Below the pieces are notes generated by a model. That model saw only the letters and a list, made by a program, of their open reading frames with translations. It made no database searches and was not told where the DNA came from. A DNA stretch of 56,411 nucleotides, from NCBI GenBank assembly GCA_015222055.1, contig JADFUR010000047.1, positions 1-56,411 on the forward strand, in the 5' to 3' direction. The translations under genes and the position numbers were made by a program. Positions within the stretch are counted from its first letter, which is position 1; each line of letters starts with the position of its first letter. Positions 107 through 56,411 of the stretch are shown here, piece after piece. The DNA is from Bacteroidota bacterium (GTDB lineage Bacteria > Bacteroidota > Bacteroidia > Bacteroidales > B39-G9).

Positions 107-1162
107 TTAATACAAATCTACCTTTTCATCTCCATTTGACGTGGCATAAGCTCTAAACATGCTTTTTGTGTTATAACTAACAGCAATATTTCCGTTTTTA
201 TCTACAGCAATAACACCACCATCGCCACCGGCTTTAACAAGCTTATCTTTAATAACATAGTTGGCAGCATCGTTAAGATTTTGGTTTTTATATTTCATTA
301 AAGCAGAAATATCGTAAGCAACAACATATCTAATAAAATATTCACCATGTCCGGTTGCAGAAACAGCACATGTATTATTGTCAGCATAAGTACCGGCACC
401 AATAATTGGCGAGTCTCCTACCCTTCCATATTGTTTATTTGATATGCCGCCTGTTGATGTGCCTGCTGCCAAATCACCAAATTTATCGAGAACAACACAA
501 CCAACAGTGCCGTGTTTGCTCATATTGTTTTTTCTAATTTGCTTTTGCAGATAATCCCATCGTCTTTGTGTAAAGAAATAACTACTATCGACAATTTCTA
601 GATTTTGCTGTTTTGCAAATTTCAATGCTCCTTTGCCCACCAGCATAACATGTTCAGAATTAGTCATTACTTTTCGAGCAGCTGCAATTGGATTTTTTAT
701 ATTGCTAACTTCTGCCACAGCACCTGCATTAAGAGTTTTGCCATCCATTATAGAAGCATCTAACTCGTTTTTGCCATCGTGAGTAAAAACAGCTCCTTTA
801 CCCGCATTAAACAAAGGAGAATCTTCAAGAATTTTTATTACGTTCTCAACAGCATCAAGTGCATGTCCTTCATTTTTTAAAATGTCAACACCTGTTTCAA
901 GAGCTTCAAGTAATTTGGCTTTATACTTAATCTCCATATTTTCTGAAATATCCTTTTTAGAATAATTACCGGCACCTGCATGAATTACTATTACATATTT
1001 ATTACTTTTATTATTATTGATAACAGTCTGTTCTATTTGTTTTTGCGGAGTGAAAAAATCTTTTTTTGCATTTTTAATTACAGGAATAAACAAAAAAGGC
1101 ACAAAAAATATTACAAGAGCATACAAATAGGGTTTTATGTGTTTAAATTTTATTTTTTTCAT
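107..1162 (-). CDS. Isoaspartyl peptidase / plant-type L-asparaginase, N-terminally anchored
   Basis: Ntn-hydrolase of the IaaA/AspG2 family, expected to cleave isoaspartyl dipeptides and/or asparagine after autoproteolysis. Visible: a hydrophobic segment at about residues 12-30, then VIVIHAGAGNYSK at about 57-69 (family N-terminal signature), NAGKGAVFTHDGKNELDASIMDG written here only as its shorter core ELDASIMDG, the autocleavage site HGTVGCV near residue 218 whose Thr becomes the nucleophile, and RVGDSPIIGAGTYAD plus TGHGEY downstream (substrate-binding region). Length (351 aa) fits the family plus an extra N-terminal anchor. The anchor suggests export or membrane attachment rather than a cytosolic enzyme (inference). 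It diverges from the sulfatase-like gene to the right. Start chosen because the anchor and MKKIKF start look normal. Confidence 0.9.
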   Translation of the reverse strand: MKKIKFKHIKPYLYALVIFFVPFLFIPVIKNAKKDFFTPQKQIEQTVINNNKSNKYVIVIHAGAGNYSKKDISENMEIKYKAKLLEALETGVDILKNEGHALDAVENVIKILEDSPLFNAGKGAVFTHDGKNELDASIMDGKTLNAGAVAEVSNIKNPIAAARKVMTNSEHVMLVGKGALKFAKQQNLEIVDSSYFFTQRRWDYLQKQIRKNNMSKHGTVGCVVLDKFGDLAAGTSTGGISNKQYGRVGDSPIIGAGTYADNNTCAVSATGHGEYFIRYVVAYDISALMKYKNQNLNDAANYVIKDKLVKAGGDGGVIAVDKNGNIAVSYNTKSMFRAYATSNGDEKVDLY

Positions 1163-3406: not shown

Positions 3407-5347
3407 TTAAACAGATTCTGGTATTGTAAATAAAAATTCACTTCCTTTATTCATTTCACTTTTGACCCAAATTTCCCCACCATGTTTTTCAACAAATTCT
3501 TTGCAAATAATTAAACCTAAGCCAGTTCCTTTTTCTTTTTCTGTTCCTGCGGTAGAAATCGTATTTTTAATTTGAAATAATTCCGTTTGTAATTTTGGCA
3601 ACATACCAACTCCATTATCTTTTACAGAGATTTGCACAAATTTATTGTTGTTTTTGGCATTTAAAATAATTTCTCCACATTTTGGCGTGAACTTTATTGC
3701 ATTAGAAACTAAATTTCTCAAAATAACTGACAGCATATTATTATCAGCATTTACAAAAATTTCTTTATTAATTTTATTTACGATATTAATTTTTTTGTTA
3801 TCCGCAACTAAACTTGATAGCTCAATAGTTTTATTAATTAATAAATATAAATTTTCTCTTTCCGGTGTAAAATTTAATTTCCCATTTTGAGAACGCGACC
3901 AGATAAGTAAATTCTCAAGCAAATTATATGTGATTTTCAAATCTTTATATACTATTCCTAAAAAACTTTTTTGTTTTTTTTGATCAAATTCCTCAAAATT
4001 TTCATAAAGTAATTTAGAAAAGCCCAGCATTGAGTTAAATGGGTTTATTAAATCGTGAGCAATTATTGAAAAAAATTTATTTTTTGTTGTATTACTGTCT
4101 CTCAACTTCGTTTCGCTTTGTTTCAGTTCTTGTTCAGATTTTCTTTTTTGAGTAATATCTCTTGAAATTCCGGTTAAAATAACAGCTTCGCCATTTGTTT
4201 TTCTTTTTGTTACTTTTCCTACGCTTTCAATCCAATGCCAATTACCAGCTTTGTCACAAGCCCTGTATTCTAAAAAACAATCGAATTTTTTTTTGTTTAC
4301 ATTTTTTTTTAAAAATTTTAATACACCGCTTAAATCATCGGGCATGATAAACTTAAGAAAGCTGTCAATTTTTTTTGGAATGTGACTATCCGTATATCCT
4401 AAATATTTAAACAATTCAGGCGAAAAAAACATTTCATTTGTCACAAAATTAGCTTCAAACATAGAAGCGTTATTAGTCTTGAGCGATAATTGAAGCCTCT
4501 GCTGGCTTTTATTTAATTTGAATTCTGCTTCTTTTTTTGCTGTGATCTCACCTACCTGTCCTTCAATTATTATTTCATCATCAATAATTATTTTTCTATT
4601 AACAAAATTTTGCAACCAAATCCATTTTCCTGACTTTGTTTTTACACGATATTCAATACTATTTCCTTCACCGAAGGAAATATCATTAAGGGCTCTTTCT
4701 ATGTTTTTTTTATCGTCGGGATGCAAAGAATTTTTGAATAAAAAAGGAGTGTTTTTTATTTCATCATTAGAATAGCCTGAAATTTCAAAAAGTCTGTCTG
4801 AACAGAATAAATTTCCTCTTTTAGTTGAATATTTATATATAATATAGCGAGAATGGTTTACAAATTTATTTAATTTCTCTTTGCTCTCTTTCAAATTTTT
4901 TTTTGATTTTTCTCTTACGCAAACATCTTCAAACACAGTAATTATTTCGCCTGTAGGTATTTGAAAAACATAATTAAAAAACGAACCAGAAATTATTTTG
5001 CCATTATATTCATTTATATTATGATATGTTGAATTCCCTGTCTTTAAAATTTCACGAAATGTTTCAAGCAGACCAATTTTTTTTATATTTGGATGAGCAT
5101 CAAGAATCTTTTTACCAATAAGGTCCTTGCGTTTTTGTTTAAAAATTTTTTCAGCTGTTTTATTAATGTCTTTAAAAATAAATTCACGACCATTATCAAT
5201 AACTTCATAAATTACTACTCCAAAATTCAGCTTGTTAAATAAACTAAAATATATGGAGTTTTCATTTTTTTGTTTGTCATTTAATTTATTTTCTAAAACT
5301 AAAATTTTTTCTTCTAATTCTTTGTAAGTAGGTTTATCCTTTTTCAT
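3407..5347 (-). CDS. Multi-PAS sensor histidine kinase
   Basis: Cytoplasmic two-component kinase with no transmembrane segment. Order: short coiled coil (residues 5-25), three PAS domains (about 30-130, 150-270 and 285-405, the latter two with PAC-like tails such as GEITAKKEAE and GISRDITQKRKSEQ), HisKA domain with phospho-acceptor His in FFSIIAHDLINPFNSM (about residue 430), and HATPase_c with N box NLVSNAIKF, G1 DNGVGM and G2 GTGLGL near the C-terminus. No receiver domain and no adjacent response regulator, so it is an orphan whose partner lies outside the window. The stacked PAS domains suggest intracellular redox or small-molecule sensing (inference). Confidence 0.92.
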   Translation of the reverse strand: MKKDKPTYKELEEKILVLENKLNDKQKNENSIYFSLFNKLNFGVVIYEVIDNGREFIFKDINKTAEKIFKQKRKDLIGKKILDAHPNIKKIGLLETFREILKTGNSTYHNINEYNGKIISGSFFNYVFQIPTGEIITVFEDVCVREKSKKNLKESKEKLNKFVNHSRYIIYKYSTKRGNLFCSDRLFEISGYSNDEIKNTPFLFKNSLHPDDKKNIERALNDISFGEGNSIEYRVKTKSGKWIWLQNFVNRKIIIDDEIIIEGQVGEITAKKEAEFKLNKSQQRLQLSLKTNNASMFEANFVTNEMFFSPELFKYLGYTDSHIPKKIDSFLKFIMPDDLSGVLKFLKKNVNKKKFDCFLEYRACDKAGNWHWIESVGKVTKRKTNGEAVILTGISRDITQKRKSEQELKQSETKLRDSNTTKNKFFSIIAHDLINPFNSMLGFSKLLYENFEEFDQKKQKSFLGIVYKDLKITYNLLENLLIWSRSQNGKLNFTPERENLYLLINKTIELSSLVADNKKINIVNKINKEIFVNADNNMLSVILRNLVSNAIKFTPKCGEIILNAKNNNKFVQISVKDNGVGMLPKLQTELFQIKNTISTAGTEKEKGTGLGLIICKEFVEKHGGEIWVKSEMNKGSEFLFTIPESV

Positions 5348-5669
5348 TCTGAAATTATTTAAACAATTTATTTTACAGATATTTAATTATCCTTAAAATT
5401 ATTTTACAATGAACTTTATAAAGAATAAAATTTTAAAATAAGCTTATTTAATTGCTTTATTAAATAAATTTATTTTAAACAAATTTTTTAGTGTATTAAA
5501 GTTCGTTTAAATATATTTCTGTAGTTTTTTAGGCAGAAAAGAAATAAATATTAAAAAAATGATATTTATTTACTTGTGTAAATCTATAAATTTTTTACAA
5601 GTAAAAAAAAATTTAAAATTATTTTTTTACTTTTTTTAATAACTATCTTTATTTCTATTCATTACAAAT
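5348..5669. other. AT-rich intergenic spacer
   Basis: About 320 bases of very AT-rich DNA between the histidine kinase start and the end of the FAD oxidoreductase gene. It should contain the kinase promoter. I see no ORF, hairpin terminator or repeat that can be supported. Confidence 0.4.
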
Positions 5670-7148
5670 TTATTTTTTTCTAATAATATCGAAAGCACAG
5701 AGATAACCGTTGAAAATGGCACCGGAAAAACCTCCGCCAATTTTAGTCCACGCAGATGAAAAATAAAGATTTTTAATAGATTTAATGGGTTCAAGTTTTG
5801 CTCTTAGGGGTGTTTGTGAAAAACCATAAACAGCTCCCTCAGGGTTTAGTGTGTAGCGTTTAATAGTTTTTGACGTTCCAACTTCATAATAGTCAATAAT
5901 ACTTTTTATACCGGGAATTAGTAACTCCAGCTTATCAATAAAAATTTGAGCCACTTCTTCTTTTTTAGAAACATATCCTTTTTTATCAAGCCTTTCCCAA
6001 TCTTTAATATAATCAATGCAACAAATCACGCCAACACTTTTCCCTTTGGGTGCTAAGGCAGAATCAATCTGACCATAATCAATAAAAGTAAAACTGCGAT
6101 TCTTGAAATCTCCTTGATTATTATTTTTAATATCAGCAATATTATTAATTGAATCGTCAAAAATAAATGTTGAATAATAATTGTATTCGAGTTCTTTTAA
6201 GGGCTTGTTAAAACCTAAATAAATTGTAAGAAGGGATGCCCCTATTTTACGCTTATCAACAAATGGTTTTAAAATATCTCTTTGCTTTTTAGGTAATAAC
6301 GTATTAGTTGTTAAAGGAATAGATGAATTTGAAATAATATTATTAGCATAAGCTGTTAATATATTGTTAGTATTGTTCTTTTTATAAGAAATACCTATAG
6401 CCTTGTCATCTTCAATTAAAATATTTGTAACAAGATGATTAAAAATTACTTGTCCGCCATTTTCAGTAATAAACCTGCTTAAATAATCAGATAATTTTTG
6501 CGAACCTCCTTTTATAAAATAACCGCCGCCCGAATAATAACTTCCCTGAGCCATAGAATAATAACTCAACGATAATGAGTATGGATCGTCGTGAAAATAA
6601 CCCAGATTTCCTAAAAGAGCAAGCTTTAAATCTTTATTTTTAATTATAGAATCGAGAAATTCACCAAGATTTCTTTCTTCCTTTTCTTCATTTTTCTTAT
6701 TAATTTCTTTTGCATTAAGAATTTGATAAAAGTATGCTTCAATACCTTTTTGATCTTCAGGAAAATGCTTTAATAAAACCGTTTTAGCTTCTTCAGGATC
6801 ATGTGGTATAACAATGTTATAATCTTTATAAACAAATCGGTAAAATTCGGGTACTTTTACAAAATCTACATTATTGAAGACATCTAAATCTCGAAATATT
6901 TTTGATTTTACATCTCTTTTCTGAAATCCGTCCATTTCATGTAAACCTACTTCAAACAAAAAATCTTTGCGTTTAAAAGTAGTTGCACAGCCACCCGGAA
7001 CAGAGTGCTGTTCAACGAGCAATACCTTTTTGCCTTCCTTAGCTAATTTTGCTCCTGCAGTTAAGCCTCCGAGACCTGCACCTATAATAATTACGTCATA
7101 TTGCATTTTGTTAATTTTATTTGAGCTTATCACGTCATTAATTGTCAT
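5670..7148 (-). CDS. CrtI-like (phytoene desaturase / retinol saturase family) FAD oxidoreductase
   Basis: FAD-dependent oxidoreductase of the phytoene dehydrogenase/13,14-retinol reductase type. The N-terminal Rossmann motif DVIIIGAGLGGLTAGAKLA is followed by VEQHSVPGGCATTFKR, and the C-terminal FAD signature NLYFSSAWTKIGGGFSGAI is intact. The family isomerises, saturates or desaturates polyene or isoprenoid chains; the substrate is not readable from sequence. Met1 (7148) and Met15 (7106, directly before QYDVIIIGAG) are both possible starts; Met15 better matches the usual short leader. Last gene of a three-gene operon after the GNAT-like protein (gap about 41 bp) and the acyl-CoA ligase, so a role in modifying a lipid or polyene made from an activated acyl chain is plausible (inference). 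Confidence 0.85.
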   Translation of the reverse strand: MTINDVISSNKINKMQYDVIIIGAGLGGLTAGAKLAKEGKKVLLVEQHSVPGGCATTFKRKDFLFEVGLHEMDGFQKRDVKSKIFRDLDVFNNVDFVKVPEFYRFVYKDYNIVIPHDPEEAKTVLLKHFPEDQKGIEAYFYQILNAKEINKKNEEKEERNLGEFLDSIIKNKDLKLALLGNLGYFHDDPYSLSLSYYSMAQGSYYSGGGYFIKGGSQKLSDYLSRFITENGGQVIFNHLVTNILIEDDKAIGISYKKNNTNNILTAYANNIISNSSIPLTTNTLLPKKQRDILKPFVDKRKIGASLLTIYLGFNKPLKELEYNYYSTFIFDDSINNIADIKNNNQGDFKNRSFTFIDYGQIDSALAPKGKSVGVICCIDYIKDWERLDKKGYVSKKEEVAQIFIDKLELLIPGIKSIIDYYEVGTSKTIKRYTLNPEGAVYGFSQTPLRAKLEPIKSIKNLYFSSAWTKIGGGFSGAIFNGYLCAFDIIRKK

Positions 7149-52551: not shown

Positions 52552-52622
52552 TTAAATAAAATTCTTGTGTTTCTTATTAAAAAAGTCTGAAAGGCTTAAA
52601 TATTAACAACTTGGGGCATCGT

Positions 52623-52782
52623 CTTGCTTGTCGTAGTCTCTGCCCACGCCCCCATCTAGCACCAACATATTGTCTGTGTTTTTTTCACTACTTAAAACGG
52701 ATTAAAAAAATTAGAATTTTAATTAATATCTTTTTTGCTTTTTTTTGCTAACTTTGAGTTTATCTATTGAAGTGTTTTGTGC
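52623..52782 (+). repeat. Leader/promoter repeat R1
   Basis: Starts CTTGCTTGTCGTAGTCTC, includes CCACGCCCCCATCTA and a run to TTTTTTGCTAACTTTGAG. TAACTTTG (52749-52756) matches the Bacteroidetes -7 box. Shorter than R2 and R3: it lacks the left 160 bp and the ATAAGACAC hairpin near the 3' end. Confidence 0.8.
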
Positions 52783-53110
52783 AAAAAAATTAATTTTTTC
52801 ATTTAAATAGATGGAAAAGCTACAATGTCAGATCAGTGGATTAGCTTGTTTGGAAGATTTTTAGTAGTCTGGTTCTTATAATTTGCCAAAACGAGTCACG
52901 ATAGATCCCTGTTTTCTCTGGATTTCGCTTTTCCTAATTTCAATTTTTAGTTCTATCATTGTGAATTATGTTAATGAAATAAATTTTTAATATAAATGAA
53001 CAAATAGATTACTCTAAAGGCAATCCTAAGTTTTTTGATTTGTACCTTTGTCCCTTTTGTAGATGAATTACTACAATGAGCAAAATATTAAAATATAATT
53101 TAAAAAAAGA

Positions 53111-53800
53111 ATGAATAAAGAGATTAAAAAGAAAAAGAAAGTGGTGAAAATAAATACTTATGAATCACTTAAAGCACTGTATTATTCTGGTAAGGTGAAG
53201 CCGACATTAAATAAAATTGTTGCTGAATTAGAAAATGATTCTGAAAACTTAGAACTCGTTCTTTTAGCTTGTCAGTGTTTGGAAAGAACTAAGAATGTTG
53301 ATGAGTTGTCTATCTACGCTGATATTTCTATTAAATTGGCTCCTAAAATTGCAGAAGGATATTATTACAAGGGAGTGGCTCTTCAGCAAATAAAAGGAAA
53401 AGAGCAGGAAGCTCTAAAAAACTTAAACGAAGCATTAACTTTAGACCCAGACAACACTATTTACCTTAAAAGTAAAGCCCGTACTCATTTTTTGCTTTAC
53501 ACAGATTATCATTTGCCTATAAAATTCGCTGAAAAACATAGGGCTAAAGCTGAAGAGAATCTATTAAAAGTTATTAAACTGATAGAGGAAAAAGAAAATC
53601 CGGATTATATAGATTTTCTTACTATTGGTGATGTGTTTATTCTGGTTAGTAAAACCATACGTGCCAAGAAGTATTACTTTAAAGCGATAAATGCCTATAA
53701 TAATTCTGATGAATCAAAACAGAATAAAAATATATATAAAGACATTATTAAGGGTCAAAATGCTTGTAAGAAGTTGATGAATAAAGTCACTGATGAATAA
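53111..53800 (+). CDS. TPR-repeat protein (cassette 1)
   Basis: 229 aa, no signal peptide. Lys-rich N-terminus (MNKEIKKKKKVVKIN) then TPR units: AEGYYYKGVALQQIKGKEQE, ALKNLNEALTLDPDNTIYLK and TIRAKKYYFKAINAYNNS. Cytosolic adaptor-type protein, specific role unknown. It is the first gene of the cassette-like array: behind leader R1 and followed 30 bp later by an attC-like hairpin. Confidence 0.75.
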   Translation: MNKEIKKKKKVVKINTYESLKALYYSGKVKPTLNKIVAELENDSENLELVLLACQCLERTKNVDELSIYADISIKLAPKIAEGYYYKGVALQQIKGKEQEALKNLNEALTLDPDNTIYLKSKARTHFLLYTDYHLPIKFAEKHRAKAEENLLKVIKLIEEKENPDYIDFLTIGDVFILVSKTIRAKKYYFKAINAYNNSDESKQNKNIYKDIIKGQNACKKLMNKVTDE

Positions 53801-53835
53801 TTTCATCATGATCTTCAAAAAAAGATAAATAGCCA

Positions 53836-53887
53836 GCACACAACAAGTCAACATAGGGCATTAAAACGCCCCATATTGACACACGTT
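53836..53887 (+). other. attC-like hairpin 1 (end of cassette 1)
   Basis: CACACAACAAG, then GTCAACATAGGGC (53847-53859), loop of 8, GCCCCATATTGAC (53868-53880), ACACGTT. Stem has two G-T type imperfections; flanking ACAAC and CGTT resemble the outer boxes of integron attC sites, though TTCTGA after the G departs from TTRRRY. Confidence 0.45.
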
Positions 53888-54180
53888 CTGAACAATAAAA
53901 CTAAACAAACAGCAATAATTAATAATCCATTAATTTGATCAATTAGTGGATTATTAATTATTTGTATTTTAGAAAAAATATTTCCCCCTACTTGCCATAG
54001 CCTCTAACCACGCCCCCATCTATCACCAAAATATTGTCTGTGTTTTTTCAAATACTTAAAACGAATTAAAAAAATTAGAATTTTAATTAATATCTTTTTT
54101 GTTTTTTTTTGCTAACTTTGAGTTTAACTATTAAATATATATTGGAAATAAGACACACTGTGTCTTATTGAAATGTTGTA
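53862..54180 (+). repeat. Leader/promoter repeat R2
   Basis: From AAAACGCCCC through CGTTCTGAACAATAAA to the AAATGTTGT end. Holds a long palindrome (53918-53958, centre TTGATCAA), the CCACGCCCCCATCTA core, -7 box TAACTTTG (54113-54120) and a terminal hairpin ATAAGACAC/GTGTCTTAT (54149-54169). About 320 bp, matching R3 nearly throughout. Drives the antitoxin-toxin pair. Confidence 0.85.
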
Positions 54181-54269
54181 AAGCATTGAAGACACGAAAA
54201 GTATTTAATAAAGTTTGTAAATATTGGAATAATATAAATAAAATTGTAATTTTGATAAAAAGGTTAATA

Positions 54270-54491
54270 ATGAATATTCCAGCTAAAAAATTAGAATTAG
54301 TAAGATTGATTTTGGATACGAATAATCCGAGTGTTTTGAAATCAATAAAGGAACTTTTTACAAAAAGAAAGGGTTCTGATTTTTGGGACACTTTATCCCA
54401 AGAACAAAAAAAGGATATACAGGAAGGACTGGAAGAGGTTGAAAGAGGTGAAATCGTCGATTATAATGAATTTATGAAAGAATATCAATAA
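54270..54491 (+). CDS. Antitoxin of a RelE/ParE-type module (cassette 2)
   Basis: 73 aa from Met at 54270 (MNIPAKKLELVRLILDT); the open frame extends upstream to 54168, but that part lies in the leader. Sequence (RLILDTNNPSVLKSIKELF, WDTLSQEQKKDIQEGLEEVE, DYNEFMKEYQ) resembles short addiction-module antitoxins that pair with RelE toxins. Its TAA stop overlaps the toxin's ATG by one base (TAATG), giving translational coupling. Confidence 0.75.
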   Translation: MNIPAKKLELVRLILDTNNPSVLKSIKELFTKRKGSDFWDTLSQEQKKDIQEGLEEVERGEIVDYNEFMKEYQ

Positions 54492-54793
54492 TGAGAAGGA
54501 TTGTTTTATCAAGAAGATCATCTAATAAATTGAGTAAATTGCTTGAATATCTTGAAAACGAATGGTCTTTGAAAGCAAGAAATGATTTTTTGAAAAGACT
54601 TAACAAATCCCTTTCACAAATACAAAATTTTCCAGAAAGTAGTTCTGAAACTGATTATGTCAAAGGTTTGCGAATGCTTGTGATTACAAAACAGACTTCA
54701 ATATTTTACAGATTTAACTCAAAGACAATAACCGTAGTTACACTTTTTGACAATAGAATGAACCCTACTGGAATTCTAAAAAAAACAAAATAA
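54491..54793 (+). CDS. RelE/ParE-family toxin (cassette 2)
   Basis: 100 aa. RIVLSRRSSNKLSKLLEYLE, WSLKARNDFLKRLNKSLSQI, FPESSS, GLRMLVITKQTSIFYRFN and TVVTLFDNRMNP follow the RelE/ParE toxin family (helical hairpin then four-strand sheet, C-terminal LFDNRxNP). Likely a ribosome-dependent mRNA cleaver or gyrase-directed toxin neutralised by the preceding antitoxin. Confidence 0.88.
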   Translation: MRRIVLSRRSSNKLSKLLEYLENEWSLKARNDFLKRLNKSLSQIQNFPESSSETDYVKGLRMLVITKQTSIFYRFNSKTITVVTLFDNRMNPTGILKKTK

Positions 54794-54797
54794 CGCT

Positions 54798-54925
54798 TTA
54801 CAACACGCAATATAAAAAATTGGGTGAAAAGTGTTAAATATGAATGGAATAGCAATAAACTTTCAGTATAGTAAATTGAAAGTTTGGTATTTCAAAACGC
54901 CCATCATTTCATATAGACATCCGTT
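54798..54925 (+). other. attC-like hairpin 2 (end of cassette 2)
   Basis: TTACAACACGC, then ATATAAAAAATTGGGTG (54810-54826) partly pairing with CGCCCATCATTTCATAT (54898-54914), an inner hairpin AAACTTTCA/TGAAAGTTT, and CCGTT at 54921-54925. Layout parallels hairpin 1 with a different stem sequence and longer loop. Confidence 0.4.
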
Positions 54926-55217
54926 CTGAACAATAAACCAAAACAAACAGTAAAAATAAAAAAAATATTAATTTGGTCAATTAGTGGATTATTAATTATT
55001 ATTTTTTAGAAAATCTATTTCCCCTTGCTTGTCGTAGTCTCTAACCACGCCCCCATCTATCACCAACATATTGTCTGTGTTTTTTTTAGTACTTAAAACG
55101 AATTAAAAAAATTAGAATCTCAATTAATATCTTTTTTGTTTTTTTTTGCTAACTTTGAGTTTAACTATTAAATATATAGTGGGGATAAGACACACTAGTG
55201 TCTTATTGAAGTGTTGT
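54893..55217 (+). repeat. Leader/promoter repeat R3
   Basis: From CAAAACGCCC through CGTTCTGAACAATAAA to GAAGTGTTGTGTG. -7 box TAACTTTG at 55150-55157 and hairpin ATAAGACAC-ACTA-GTGTCTTAT near 55186-55207. The left arm of the R2 palindrome is missing. Ends 34 bp before the next gene. Confidence 0.85.
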
Positions 55218-55250
55218 GTGTAATGCAATGAATCACTTTAAAATATACGA

Positions 55251-56321
55251 ATGCTATTTGAAAAAATTGACTTTGAAAACAAAAGTCACATAGAGAAATT
55301 TATTATTACAAAAAAATTTGATTGCAATACTTGGGAGGATTACTATAATTCATATAATTATGCATTAAAATGTATTTTAGAAGAAGGATTTAGTAAAAAT
55401 TATGATCTAAATTGCAAAGCAAAGTGCATTCTATTTCTAATTCGTCACAGTATTGAACTTTGTCTTAAACTAAATTTGTATAATAAAAAATTACCTATAC
55501 CTAATTCTCATATTTTTAAAGATTTAATTTCTGCATATCCTGAAGATTACAAATTTCAGGTAAGTCTAATAAAAATTCTTCACCTAATTGATTTAGATAA
55601 AGATGGTTCTTGCTATAGATATGTTGCTAACAAGGATACTAATGCAAATTATTTCACGCATGAGGATGTAACTAAAGTTTATGAGATTTTACAATTACAT
55701 TGGAGTTTAAACAATACTACAGAATTCGAAATTGGAACTATATTTCCTGAAATGGAATTTAGCAAAATCAAAAAGTGGGACTTAACGTTTCATCTAGGAG
55801 AAGCTAATTTACTTGGACCGTTAAGAACACAATACGATCAGTGTATTGAAGTGTTAGTTGTTGGAATTATTGAAGATAGGTTCGATGTAAATGAGATTTT
55901 TGTACCATTAATGTTTTTGATTAGACATTCTTTAGAATTAGCTTTAAAATCTAATATTATTGAAGTCCAAAATTTTTCAACTCTAATTAAAGGTAAGGAC
56001 TATTCTAATGAACATTCTTTAGCAAGGCTATTTAATTGCTATCATGATTACCTTACTAAGGTAGATTTCAGTAAGCTTTCTCAAGAATTGAACAAAGAAA
56101 TTGAAATATACTTGATTGAGTATGCAAAATTAAATGAGGTGATTCATCAGTTAGATAAGAATTCTCAACACTTTAGGTTTCCTACTAACGTGAAGGGAGA
56201 TTTTCATAACATTCAACTTTCGAAGATTAGTTTTATAGATGTATTGAAACTATACTATTATACAGATCCATTTTTAACATTCTCAAATAATGTTTTAGAA
56301 GAAAATGGAATATTAGTTTAA
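55251..56321 (+). CDS. Unknown protein with internally repeated helical motif (cassette 3)
   Basis: 356 aa, no signal peptide. Two copies of one motif, FLIRHSIELCLKLNL (about residue 66) and FLIRHSLELALKSNI (about 224), show an internal duplication of a helical domain; RHxxE-type helices occur in HEPN-like proteins, so this may be a tandem HEPN relative (tentative). Sits behind leader R3 and is followed by GCACATACACACAATC, which resembles the left boxes of the other attC-like sites. Confidence 0.6.
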   Translation: MLFEKIDFENKSHIEKFIITKKFDCNTWEDYYNSYNYALKCILEEGFSKNYDLNCKAKCILFLIRHSIELCLKLNLYNKKLPIPNSHIFKDLISAYPEDYKFQVSLIKILHLIDLDKDGSCYRYVANKDTNANYFTHEDVTKVYEILQLHWSLNNTTEFEIGTIFPEMEFSKIKKWDLTFHLGEANLLGPLRTQYDQCIEVLVVGIIEDRFDVNEIFVPLMFLIRHSLELALKSNIIEVQNFSTLIKGKDYSNEHSLARLFNCYHDYLTKVDFSKLSQELNKEIEIYLIEYAKLNEVIHQLDKNSQHFRFPTNVKGDFHNIQLSKISFIDVLKLYYYTDPFLTFSNNVLEENGILV

Positions 56322-56323
56322 GC

Positions 56324-56411
56324 ACATACACACAATCGAGATACTGTGTTAAATTCCAAATAAATTATCAATTATTTTTTATACTTTTGTGGCACAGAAA
56401 GAAGGCTCGAA
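56324..56411. other. Start of a third attC-like end and next promoter, cut by the window
   Basis: GCACATACACACAATC right after the stop resembles the left ends of hairpins 1 and 2. TACTTTTG near 56380-56387 fits the Bacteroidetes -7 box, suggesting another gene just beyond the window. Leader repeat R is not seen in the visible part. Confidence 0.35.

Follow-up and report, generated by a model that had tools for sequence, protein, structure and literature searches.

The end of the window (positions 52623-56411 of the 56,411-nucleotide stretch of Bacteroidota DNA that was analysed) raises the question of why three different genes or gene pairs each stand behind a nearly identical leader, which the first-pass annotation took for a promoter carried by every cassette of a mobile system or of a degenerate sedentary integron. 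The repetition was confirmed by a 198-nt repeat family with copies at 52598, 53962 and 54999 (relative to the copy at 53962, identity is 76% for the first and 91% for the third), by blastn, which pairs the leaders at 89-93% identity across 145-309 nt, and by the box TAACTTTG, present in all three (52749-52756, 54113-54120 and 55150-55157). It is not due to chance, since the core of the leader recurs dozens of times in the same genome. The leader has no credible match to an RNA family such as a riboswitch or sRNA in Rfam (the window stretch gave six matches at E ≤10, all at chance level), and at gathering thresholds nine loci yielded two tRNAs only.

All three leaders lie on the plus strand and are read here as copies of an integron head. 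Leader 1 (52627-52774; 90% identical to leader 2 across 145 nt) is a solo copy ending at the recombination point G52774|TT, whose palindrome has been lost according to the alignment of leaders. Leader 2 (53886-54175), delimited by the repeat family, blastn and the core model, contains an AT-rich inverted repeat (53907-53969), the box, a palindrome (54147-54169) and G54175|TT. Leader 3 (54924-55213) has its palindrome at 55184-55207 and ends at G55213|TT; the segment 55109-55215 (plus strand), covering the integrase-derived, promoter and attI parts, is 77% identical over 113 columns to C26 of the same genome, the reference there being the last codons of an integrase and the region downstream. 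The integrase-derived part of the window leaders is short, and a search with the integrase codons alone gave no match of its own. The left ends of leaders 2 and 3 are G|TTCTGAACAATAAA, exactly at the end of the preceding attC-like site; the earlier statement that the leader begins where a hairpin ends thus holds for these two but not for leader 1, ahead of which no attC is visible by eye.

Each leader is followed by a cassette on the same strand, with the products that had been named before. Cassette 1 (52775-53885) encodes a TPR-like protein (ORF 53111-53800; sub-threshold in Pfam, best E 0.0016). Cassette 2 (54176-54923) contains a small ORF (54270-54491) upstream of a ParE-type toxin (54491-54793; ParE_toxin, 32.9 bits against a Pfam cut-off of 23), and cassette 3 (55214-56335) an ORF for an HEPN-like protein (55251-56321; 19.1 bits, below the Pfam cut-off of 22). 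The final box of each of the three is complementary to the beginning of that cassette: TTTTGTGC at the start of cassette 1 pairs by eye with GCACACAAC at its end except for one mismatch, GTTGTAAAGC of cassette 2 is the exact reverse complement of GCTTTACAAC, and the end box TACACACAA of cassette 3 (56327-56335) is complementary to the start at 9 of 10 positions. Hairpins had been described after the first two genes. That of cassette 1, an attC-like site at 53836-53887 (plus strand; R'' 53836-53844; G53885|TT), folds as the bottom strand with z -4.9 (none of 200 shuffles as good), AAC pairing with GTT around an asymmetric stem. The site of cassette 2 (54795-54925, plus strand; R'' 54795-54804; G54923|TT) is long and belongs to an attC family repeated in its own genome, but its bottom-strand fold is not significant (z -0.7, with -4.0 on the top strand), nor is that of its G001 relative folded as the bottom strand (z -0.1). 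The similar left box described at the end of the third cassette is present but interrupted by a repeat element, only the start of which is seen (56334-56411, no strand assigned), since the contig stops inside it at 56411; C24 and C105 both open with the same 78-80 nt, joined in each case to another cassette end. The proposal that cassettes with attC-like ends are inserted at a single point stands, the point being the 3' end of the leader at its G|TT junction.

The origin of the leader is indicated by C26, where an intact integrase ORF runs directly into the 3' half of the leader, with promoter box, palindrome and G|TT, and the leader is therefore read as an integrase-less copy of an integron head. 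The attI of this integrase lies directly after its stop codon, and the same core follows a same-genus integrase that is 88% identical (G001:C10); an attI with a G|TT insertion point adjoining the integrase gene, as in canonical integrons, is thus found at both. The IntI-like recombinase for which a search had been suggested is accordingly on C26; the window proteins scanned between 50 and 56 kb, a stretch with two attC-like sites before the contig end, include no recognised integrase. The C26 enzyme is a tyrosine recombinase, XerC/IntI-like, that lacks the insertion specific to IntI. TIGR02249 matches it at 197.6 bits, against a cut-off of 265, in two pieces around a gap at model positions 179-239, and in a profile comparison with IntI4 positions 279-300 occupy the place of IntI4 179-243. 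The additional domain of canonical IntI is absent from it, and for this reason the system is called integron-type rather than a canonical integron. At least 551 relatives of the integrase are encoded in the reference genomes scanned, and the 80 best mostly bear Bacteroidota names. Among the downstream regions viewed (31 of the best 80 of these at least 551), a palindrome ending no more than 8 nt from a GTT[AG] close to the integrase stop was found by an imperfect search at 18 loci, against 6 of 620 shuffles; a stricter search found a palindrome near the stop at 16 of the 31, and the remaining 13 had none there even by the imperfect search. Near the integrase at 28 reference loci (8-13 kb each), a search for a second head returned only matches of at most 29 nt, apart from self-matching palindromes.

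How widely the core is repeated was counted with a model, R1, that already contains 9 base pairs. At E ≤1 it has 118 matches in this genome (G000), 6 and 8 in two same-genus genomes, none in four of five less related genomes and two weak ones in the fifth. Leaving out presumed reverse-strand echoes of the palindrome reduced the 118 to 96 rows, and removal of 10 under 33 bits and one that runs off its contig (C114:4-) left 85 usable attI-like sites, spread over 41 contigs; 74 are strong, and 7 are training sequences of the model. The G stands at a constant distance from the model end in 79 of the 85, and a purine follows GTT or ATT in 75, conservation dropping directly behind; the TT itself is there by construction, because anchoring took the nearest GTT or ATT. 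The palindrome score is at least 8 at 60 of 85 sites versus 25 of 425 shuffles, the sites having been found by a model that already held base pairs, and a -33-like box is present at only 13. Among the 77 sites with at least 300 nt downstream, R'' and R' are exactly complementary over 10 nt in 12 cassettes (mean 0.1, maximum 1 in 20 permutations), while no more than 24 reach 9 or more complementary positions out of 10 (mean 6.5, maximum 11 after permutation); the complementary R''/R' and G|TT of canonical attC sites therefore appear as an excess over permuted pairs, not in every cassette. As a rule, the gene cassette behind each leader is a different one. A Pfam scan covered 30 of the 67 leader-proximal ORFs (among the other 37, two are window ORFs for which a separate scan used slightly different ends); 13 of the 30 had no match at 0.001, and several leader-proximal cassette genes are restriction-, toxin- or defence-like. 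Of the possibilities held against a cassette system in the first-pass annotation, simple tandem duplication is ruled out by a core that precedes many different genes on 41 contigs. By its motifs, the sequence at the attC ends of G002:C7 and C118 resembled a group II intron; none was detected there at Rfam gathering thresholds.

The end of the window is quite probably a piece of a Bacteroidota integron-type system, in which the leaders are solo head copies with cassettes at their attI and the integrase is supplied in trans. The leader would consist of the decayed 3' tip of an integrase gene (about 10 codons at most in the window leaders), a predicted promoter box of the Bacteroidota type, and an attI made of a palindrome, some 5 nt and G|TT. 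One gene cassette, ending in its own attC-like site, would be inserted per attI at G|TT, presumably to be driven by the promoter. The C26 integrase, an intact ORF of this family, would serve all sites in trans by recombining attI-like with attC-like sites. The likeness of the leader to the integrase-proximal attI, the G|TT junctions, the R''/R' excess, the presence of one cassette start at several sites and the dozens of copies are facts of the sequence itself. The leader is not a promoter carried by every cassette: its right end is attI, as directly after the C26 integrase, and the cassette starts behind it. Of the original proposal, an integron-type mobile system is retained with the leader outside the cassette; degeneration is seen in the integrase 3' remnants of some leaders but not in the multiplication of truncated heads or in the intact C26 ORF.

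Cassettes found in several contexts bear on how they came there. Exactly after the G, three leaders (C81, C110 and C4) with 66-78% identity continue into one and the same 79-nt cassette start (79/79), and the cassette behind the C26 attI is also found on C59 behind an attC, without a leader (81 nt identical), another sign that the leader is no part of the cassette. These shared starts match what integron recombination would leave, although, as they extend to the ends of contigs, they may instead reflect variants within the population or branches of the assembly, and not copies within a single cell. Comparison with relatives at two loci gave no clean empty site: behind the same gene G001 lacks the C3 leader, in a region that has diverged, and the flanks of G001:C97 are split between contigs in G000. 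Alternatively, the cassettes might have been copied and shuffled by homologous recombination or gene conversion among dispersed leaders, with the integrase uninvolved today. Leaders of 100-400 nt are long and similar enough for some exchange, but this is improbable, as the C26/C59 cassette changes from attI to attC context exactly at G|TT without flanking homology, and an identical cassette start stands behind leaders only 66% identical. An origin of the leader as a scattered promoter or MITE-like repeat with no link to a recombinase is very hard to credit. Its copy number is high, but such an origin is already contradicted by the position of the core right behind the integrase stop codon in both G000 and G001 (many relatives show the like with other palindromes) and by the G|TT boundary with complementary cassette ends.

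A more serious rival, still unlikely, is that each leader is the leftover of a separately acquired or duplicated full head whose integrase decayed in place, no integrase-less movement ever having occurred. Graded C-terminal remnants of integrase do precede eight solo sites (best stretches 25-53 residues), an apparently internally deleted integrase precedes the core at G002:C116 (by eye; not detected by tblastn at 1e-5), and Winogradskyella ursingii has a second head that is apparently frameshifted. Against it, shared integrase-less leader matches of at least 160 nt link 27 sites in one group and 8 in another, the C26 head being a member of the latter. Among the three C113 leaders, mutual matches extend over 267-414 nt, whereas their matches to the C26 head cover no more than 206-221 nt; what they have in common therefore goes past the point of truncation. 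At the left, only some copies end sharply at G|TT and most fade, but some of the sharp ends stand behind different attC sites and once behind none visible. In 8 of 9 rows a TTGARCGAAACC start is preceded by the same attC family, some rows having no counted leader after it, so that attC and TTGARCGAAACC start could be one conserved unit. In G070, from another family of the same order, four solo copies are 92-97% identical to the G070 head and then differ from G|TT or shortly after, two of the four alignments stopping exactly at TT. From the truncated leaders that several sites have in common, it would seem that heads without an integrase multiplied as units and were probably mobilised in trans. 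Their spread would be explained most simply by cassette-like excision and reinsertion, since a head downstream of an attC is flanked by attC and attI in direct orientation. The fuller reading of a distributed integron has, in our estimate, an even chance: the integrase-stripped head (promoter and attI) would be a mobile cassette-like module, multiplied to dozens of places by one integrase in trans and giving many cassettes their own promoter and landing pad, in a Bacteroidota-wide system with an integrase lacking the IntI insertion and an attI on a lineage-specific palindrome, missed by IntI-profile surveys.

Among known systems, the sedentary chromosomal integrons of the Vibrio, Xanthomonas and Treponema type share the integrase, the adjacent attI, the attC cassettes starting at G|TT and the repeated attC family, and in Treponema the integrase is likewise read toward attI (PMC3607928). 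Unlike them, the present system has an integrase without the IntI insertion and extra attI copies without integrase; instead of a single attI and Pc at the array head there are the 85 anchored sites. Extra attI sequence inside cassette arrays recalls the deltaattI-type cassettes of class 1 and 2 integrons, which according to PMC12901181 carry downstream of the ORF, in place of attC, only part of an attI, 14-18 nt long in seven types and 244 nt long in one. The same paper reports one natural attI1-ORF-attI1 case and excision of attI1-aadB-attI1 at 97-100%, and calls rare (PMC12901181) a repeated-attI arrangement that is common here. By contrast, the promoter and attI lie upstream here and cassettes retain attC, window cassettes 1 and 2 keeping attC-like ends. 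Treponema integrons have ORF-less promoter cassettes, a kind of gene cassette that terminates in attC. They too supply a promoter within arrays from a module without an ORF (PMC6557892), whereas the module here is derived from an integrase head and terminates on the right in the attI core that also follows the integrase, no separate attC being seen by eye. Arrays away from an integrase also occur as CALIN, clusters of attC without integrase (PMC9024848). Unlike CALIN, the cassettes here have their own attI and promoter box. A textbook integron has one head only, and no description of multiple dispersed attI heads was found among the papers listed by searches of an open-access library.

Expression in textbook integrons reaches the cassettes close to the single promoter; most of the rest rely on internal promoters or stay silent. 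If the proposed reading is correct, dozens of copies of promoter and attI would allow many cassettes to be expressed and offer many entry points to one integrase, and attI-bearing heads would be able to move. The IntI-specific insertion has been described as essential for integron function (PMC8138268), and integrase relatives without it could show whether the domain is really needed. The IntegronFinder 2.0 report names a single complete integron in Bacteroidetes proper (PMC9024848); Bacteroidota are among the integron carriers in other papers. With at least 551 integrase relatives in reference genomes, a large reservoir of mobile genes may have been overlooked.

Three leaders near the end of the window, at about 52.63–52.77, 53.89–54.18 and 54.92–55.21 kb, belong to one repeat family and are also recovered by blastn, the two flanking copies showing 76% and 91% identity to the central one. 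The window is the entire contig C11 of a draft genome (G000) of 118 contigs and 3.75 Mb. As the first-pass annotation had described, a gene or gene pair is read from the ORFs behind each leader: a TPR-like protein behind leader 1, a small ORF with a ParE-type toxin behind leader 2, and a HEPN-like protein behind leader 3. Among these cassette proteins only ParE passes the Pfam cut-off, the TPR-like and HEPN-like proteins lying below it. Every cassette begins with TT after G, and this start is complementary to the box at the cassette's end (TTTTGTGC/GCACACAAC with one mismatch, by eye, in cassette 1; TTGTAAAGC/GCTTTACAAC in cassette 2; TTGTGTGTA/TACACACAA in cassette 3). The hairpins noted 3' of cassettes 1 and 2 are both attC-like; the first folds on the bottom strand with z −4.9 (0/200 shuffles as good), and the second is long and has a fold significant for the top strand only. 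The claim that a leader starts where a hairpin ends holds for leaders 2 and 3, whose left end, G|TTCTGAACAATAAA, is the exact end of the preceding attC. A repeat found at the ends of two further contigs breaks the attC of cassette 3. This element (56334–56411 of the window and the starts of C24 and C105) has entered three different cassettes in their R'' box, at ...AA|TCGAGATACTG, where the assembly breaks; it may be an insertion sequence or an intron that targets attC. Cassette ends with AATC[AG]AGTAG are seen at three extracted loci, L050 (2480–2600), L051 (about 5000–5160, minus strand) and L044 (about 300–340, minus strand), and in two of the three the adjoining sequence resembles, on the opposite strand, the 3' end of a group II intron; Rfam at gathering thresholds gave no group II intron at these ends.

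The best match of the integron-integrase profile in G000 is an intact ORF of 379 aa on C26. Leader 3 aligns with the last codons of this integrase, its stop, the promoter box, the palindrome and GTGTT (77% over 113 columns), and in a same-genus genome an 88%-identical integrase is followed by the same core. Because the same core directly follows the integrases of C26 and of the same-genus genome, the 3' part of the leader is, on sequence grounds, attI, and not a promoter carried by the cassette as had been proposed. The array is confirmed as an observation, and its interpretation, a cassette system with a promoter-leader in every cassette or a degenerate sedentary integron, is supported in part. 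Both integrases lie near the same gene (86.7% over 1841 bp), read as pyruvate phosphate dikinase; the roughly 270 bp between the C26 integrase and its divergent neighbour (L045, about 5370–5650) align nowhere in G001 or G002, two same-genus genomes. Downstream regions were viewed at 31 related loci. In 18 of them the 150 nt next to the match contain a palindrome with 8 or more net pairs whose end lies at most 8 nt from GTT[AG], versus 6 of 620 shuffles, and the palindromes near the integrase differ between lineages. The C26 integrase keeps the family-invariant residues, including R235, K260, H324, R327, H350 and Y359, which we take to be the catalytic set. It misses the integron-integrase cut-off but passes that of the XerA-type family NF040815, to which NCBI gives the name 'site-specific tyrosine recombinase/integron integrase', and the IntI-specific insertion is absent from it (profile positions 279–300 where IntI4 has 179–243). 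G000 has just one further match to it with E up to 1e-30, on C41 (35% identical).

The core was modelled from 13 sequences with 9 base pairs. At E up to 1 this model matches G000 118 times and two genomes of the same genus 6 and 8 times (a reverse-strand echo accounts for at least one of the latter); it has two weak matches in comparison genome G005, and none at this threshold in G003, G004, G007 and G057. The counts that follow use 85 of the 118, including 7 members of the training set; 74 score at least 40 bits, and the 85 are spread over 41 contigs, 20 of which hold a single site. Sites were anchored at the GTT or ATT nearest to the expected place, so that TT is present by construction; the offset from the model end is the same in 79. 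GTT stands at 81 sites and ATT at 4, a purine comes next at 75, and conservation falls 3' of it except for a conserved A at +10. TAnnTTTG lies at most 140 nt upstream at 60 sites (63–66 nt before the G in 40 of them), and a −33-like box was found at 13 only. The palindrome is a variant of AATAAGACACACTAGTGTGTCTTATT at most sites and AAACGGAATAGTCCGTTT or near it at four (C14:3042, C14:11286, C34:7424 and C40:15932); complementarity has therefore been kept while the sequence changed.

Behind 67 of the 85 sites an ORF of 70 aa or more starts within 700 nt (median offset 78 nt). Pfam matches at 0.001 were obtained for 17 of 30 scanned site-proximal ORFs, among others to RhuM, HNH/ABC-3C, EcoO109I endonuclease, DUF1016 nuclease, Mrr/NACHT-associated, BRO-N, zeta toxin, SIR2, ABC ATPases and MarC; some of these genes may be chromosomal and not cassettes. 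Start and end are complementary over an exact 10-mer in 12 of 77 cassettes, against a mean of 0.1 and a maximum of 1 in 20 permutations, and over at least 9/10 in 24, against 6.5 and a maximum of 11; most cassettes therefore fail the strict test singly, yet there is a clear excess. With a G001 copy as probe, one attC family gives 15 rows in G000 and several in G004. An identical cassette start (79/79 nt) joins exactly after G to three leaders, on C81, C110 and C4, whose mutual identity is only 66–78%, and the cassette at the C26 attI is also found, identical over 81 nt, behind an attC on C59. All these runs stop at contig ends, as assemblers leave branch points, and the shared starts show alternative junctions, either in one cell or among cells of a population.

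Integrase C-terminal remnants, with best stretches of 25–53 residues, persist at 8 solo sites (core copies without an integrase), and a few more have a short DNA trace of it. Of the integrase, the window leaders retain about ten codons inside the 113-column alignment, and a search of them with the integrase codons alone gave no match. Single linkage of integrase-less leaders common over at least 160 nt yields groups of 27 and 8 sites, and a further 7 solo sites cluster with the C26 head. Three of these 7, on C113, match each other over 267–414 nt but the C26 head over only 206–221 nt; they therefore have sequence in common beyond the truncation point, which suggests that multiplication came after truncation. 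Where kept, left ends of leaders lie at G|TT, in the window behind two different attC sites; leaders starting TTGARCGAAACC or near it have theirs behind an attC family and behind one attC outside it, and one C95 leader has no attC visible in front. The majority of the remaining left ends fade out. A head 3' of an attC has this attC on one side and an attI on the other, in direct orientation, and an integrase acting in trans could cut it out and reinsert it as it would a cassette. We infer this to be the most economical mechanism for the spread of heads, duplication by other means also being possible.

In the left part of several leaders, for example C101:21591 (minus strand) and C15:42280 (plus strand), a T run comes after a palindrome such as TCGTAGTCTCCGACTACGA; the pair resembles a terminator and may shield the promoter from transcription arriving from upstream. 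An intergenic repeat found in many places in G001 and G002, where its copies are mostly 80–87% identical, adjoins the C3 leader (L146:3473–3625) outside the attI core. On contig C116 of G002 (L052, about 6000–6130), an integrase remnant with an internal deletion (by eye) lies 3' of a tRNA-like sequence and ends in an attI-like core; tblastn at 1e-5 did not detect this remnant.

Solo heads occur beyond the genus. G070, of another family in the same order, has four solo copies elsewhere that are 92–97% identical to its own head, plus five partial matches that are weak; TT is the exact end in two of the four alignments, the other two continue 14 and 34 nt through similar cassette starts, and the last integrase codons are kept in one. 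Winogradskyella ursingii has a second head with an apparently frameshifted integrase 3' part and a different cassette.

The C26 system resembles the canonical integron in attI position, G|TT and attC, but departs from it in two tested features: the IntI insertion is absent and attI is not single. Published sources name one complete integron in Bacteroidetes itself (IntegronFinder 2.0; PMC9024848), count Bacteroidetes or Bacteroidota among integron carriers in other papers, include an integrase survey whose selection was made on the additional domain, and call that insertion essential to integron function (PMC8138268). They also give one attI per integron and, in Treponema, intI read towards attI (both PMC3607928), and they describe ORF-less promoter cassettes from Treponema integrons (PMC6557892), deltaattI cassettes in which part of an attI replaces the attC, and near-complete excision in attI1-aadB-attI1 (both PMC12901181). 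Among the open-access papers listed, none by title and abstract has multiple dispersed attI heads or such a Bacteroidota system. As its sequence reads, G000 carries dozens of integron heads that lack an integrase, a variant of integrons that goes beyond what was first proposed for the array.
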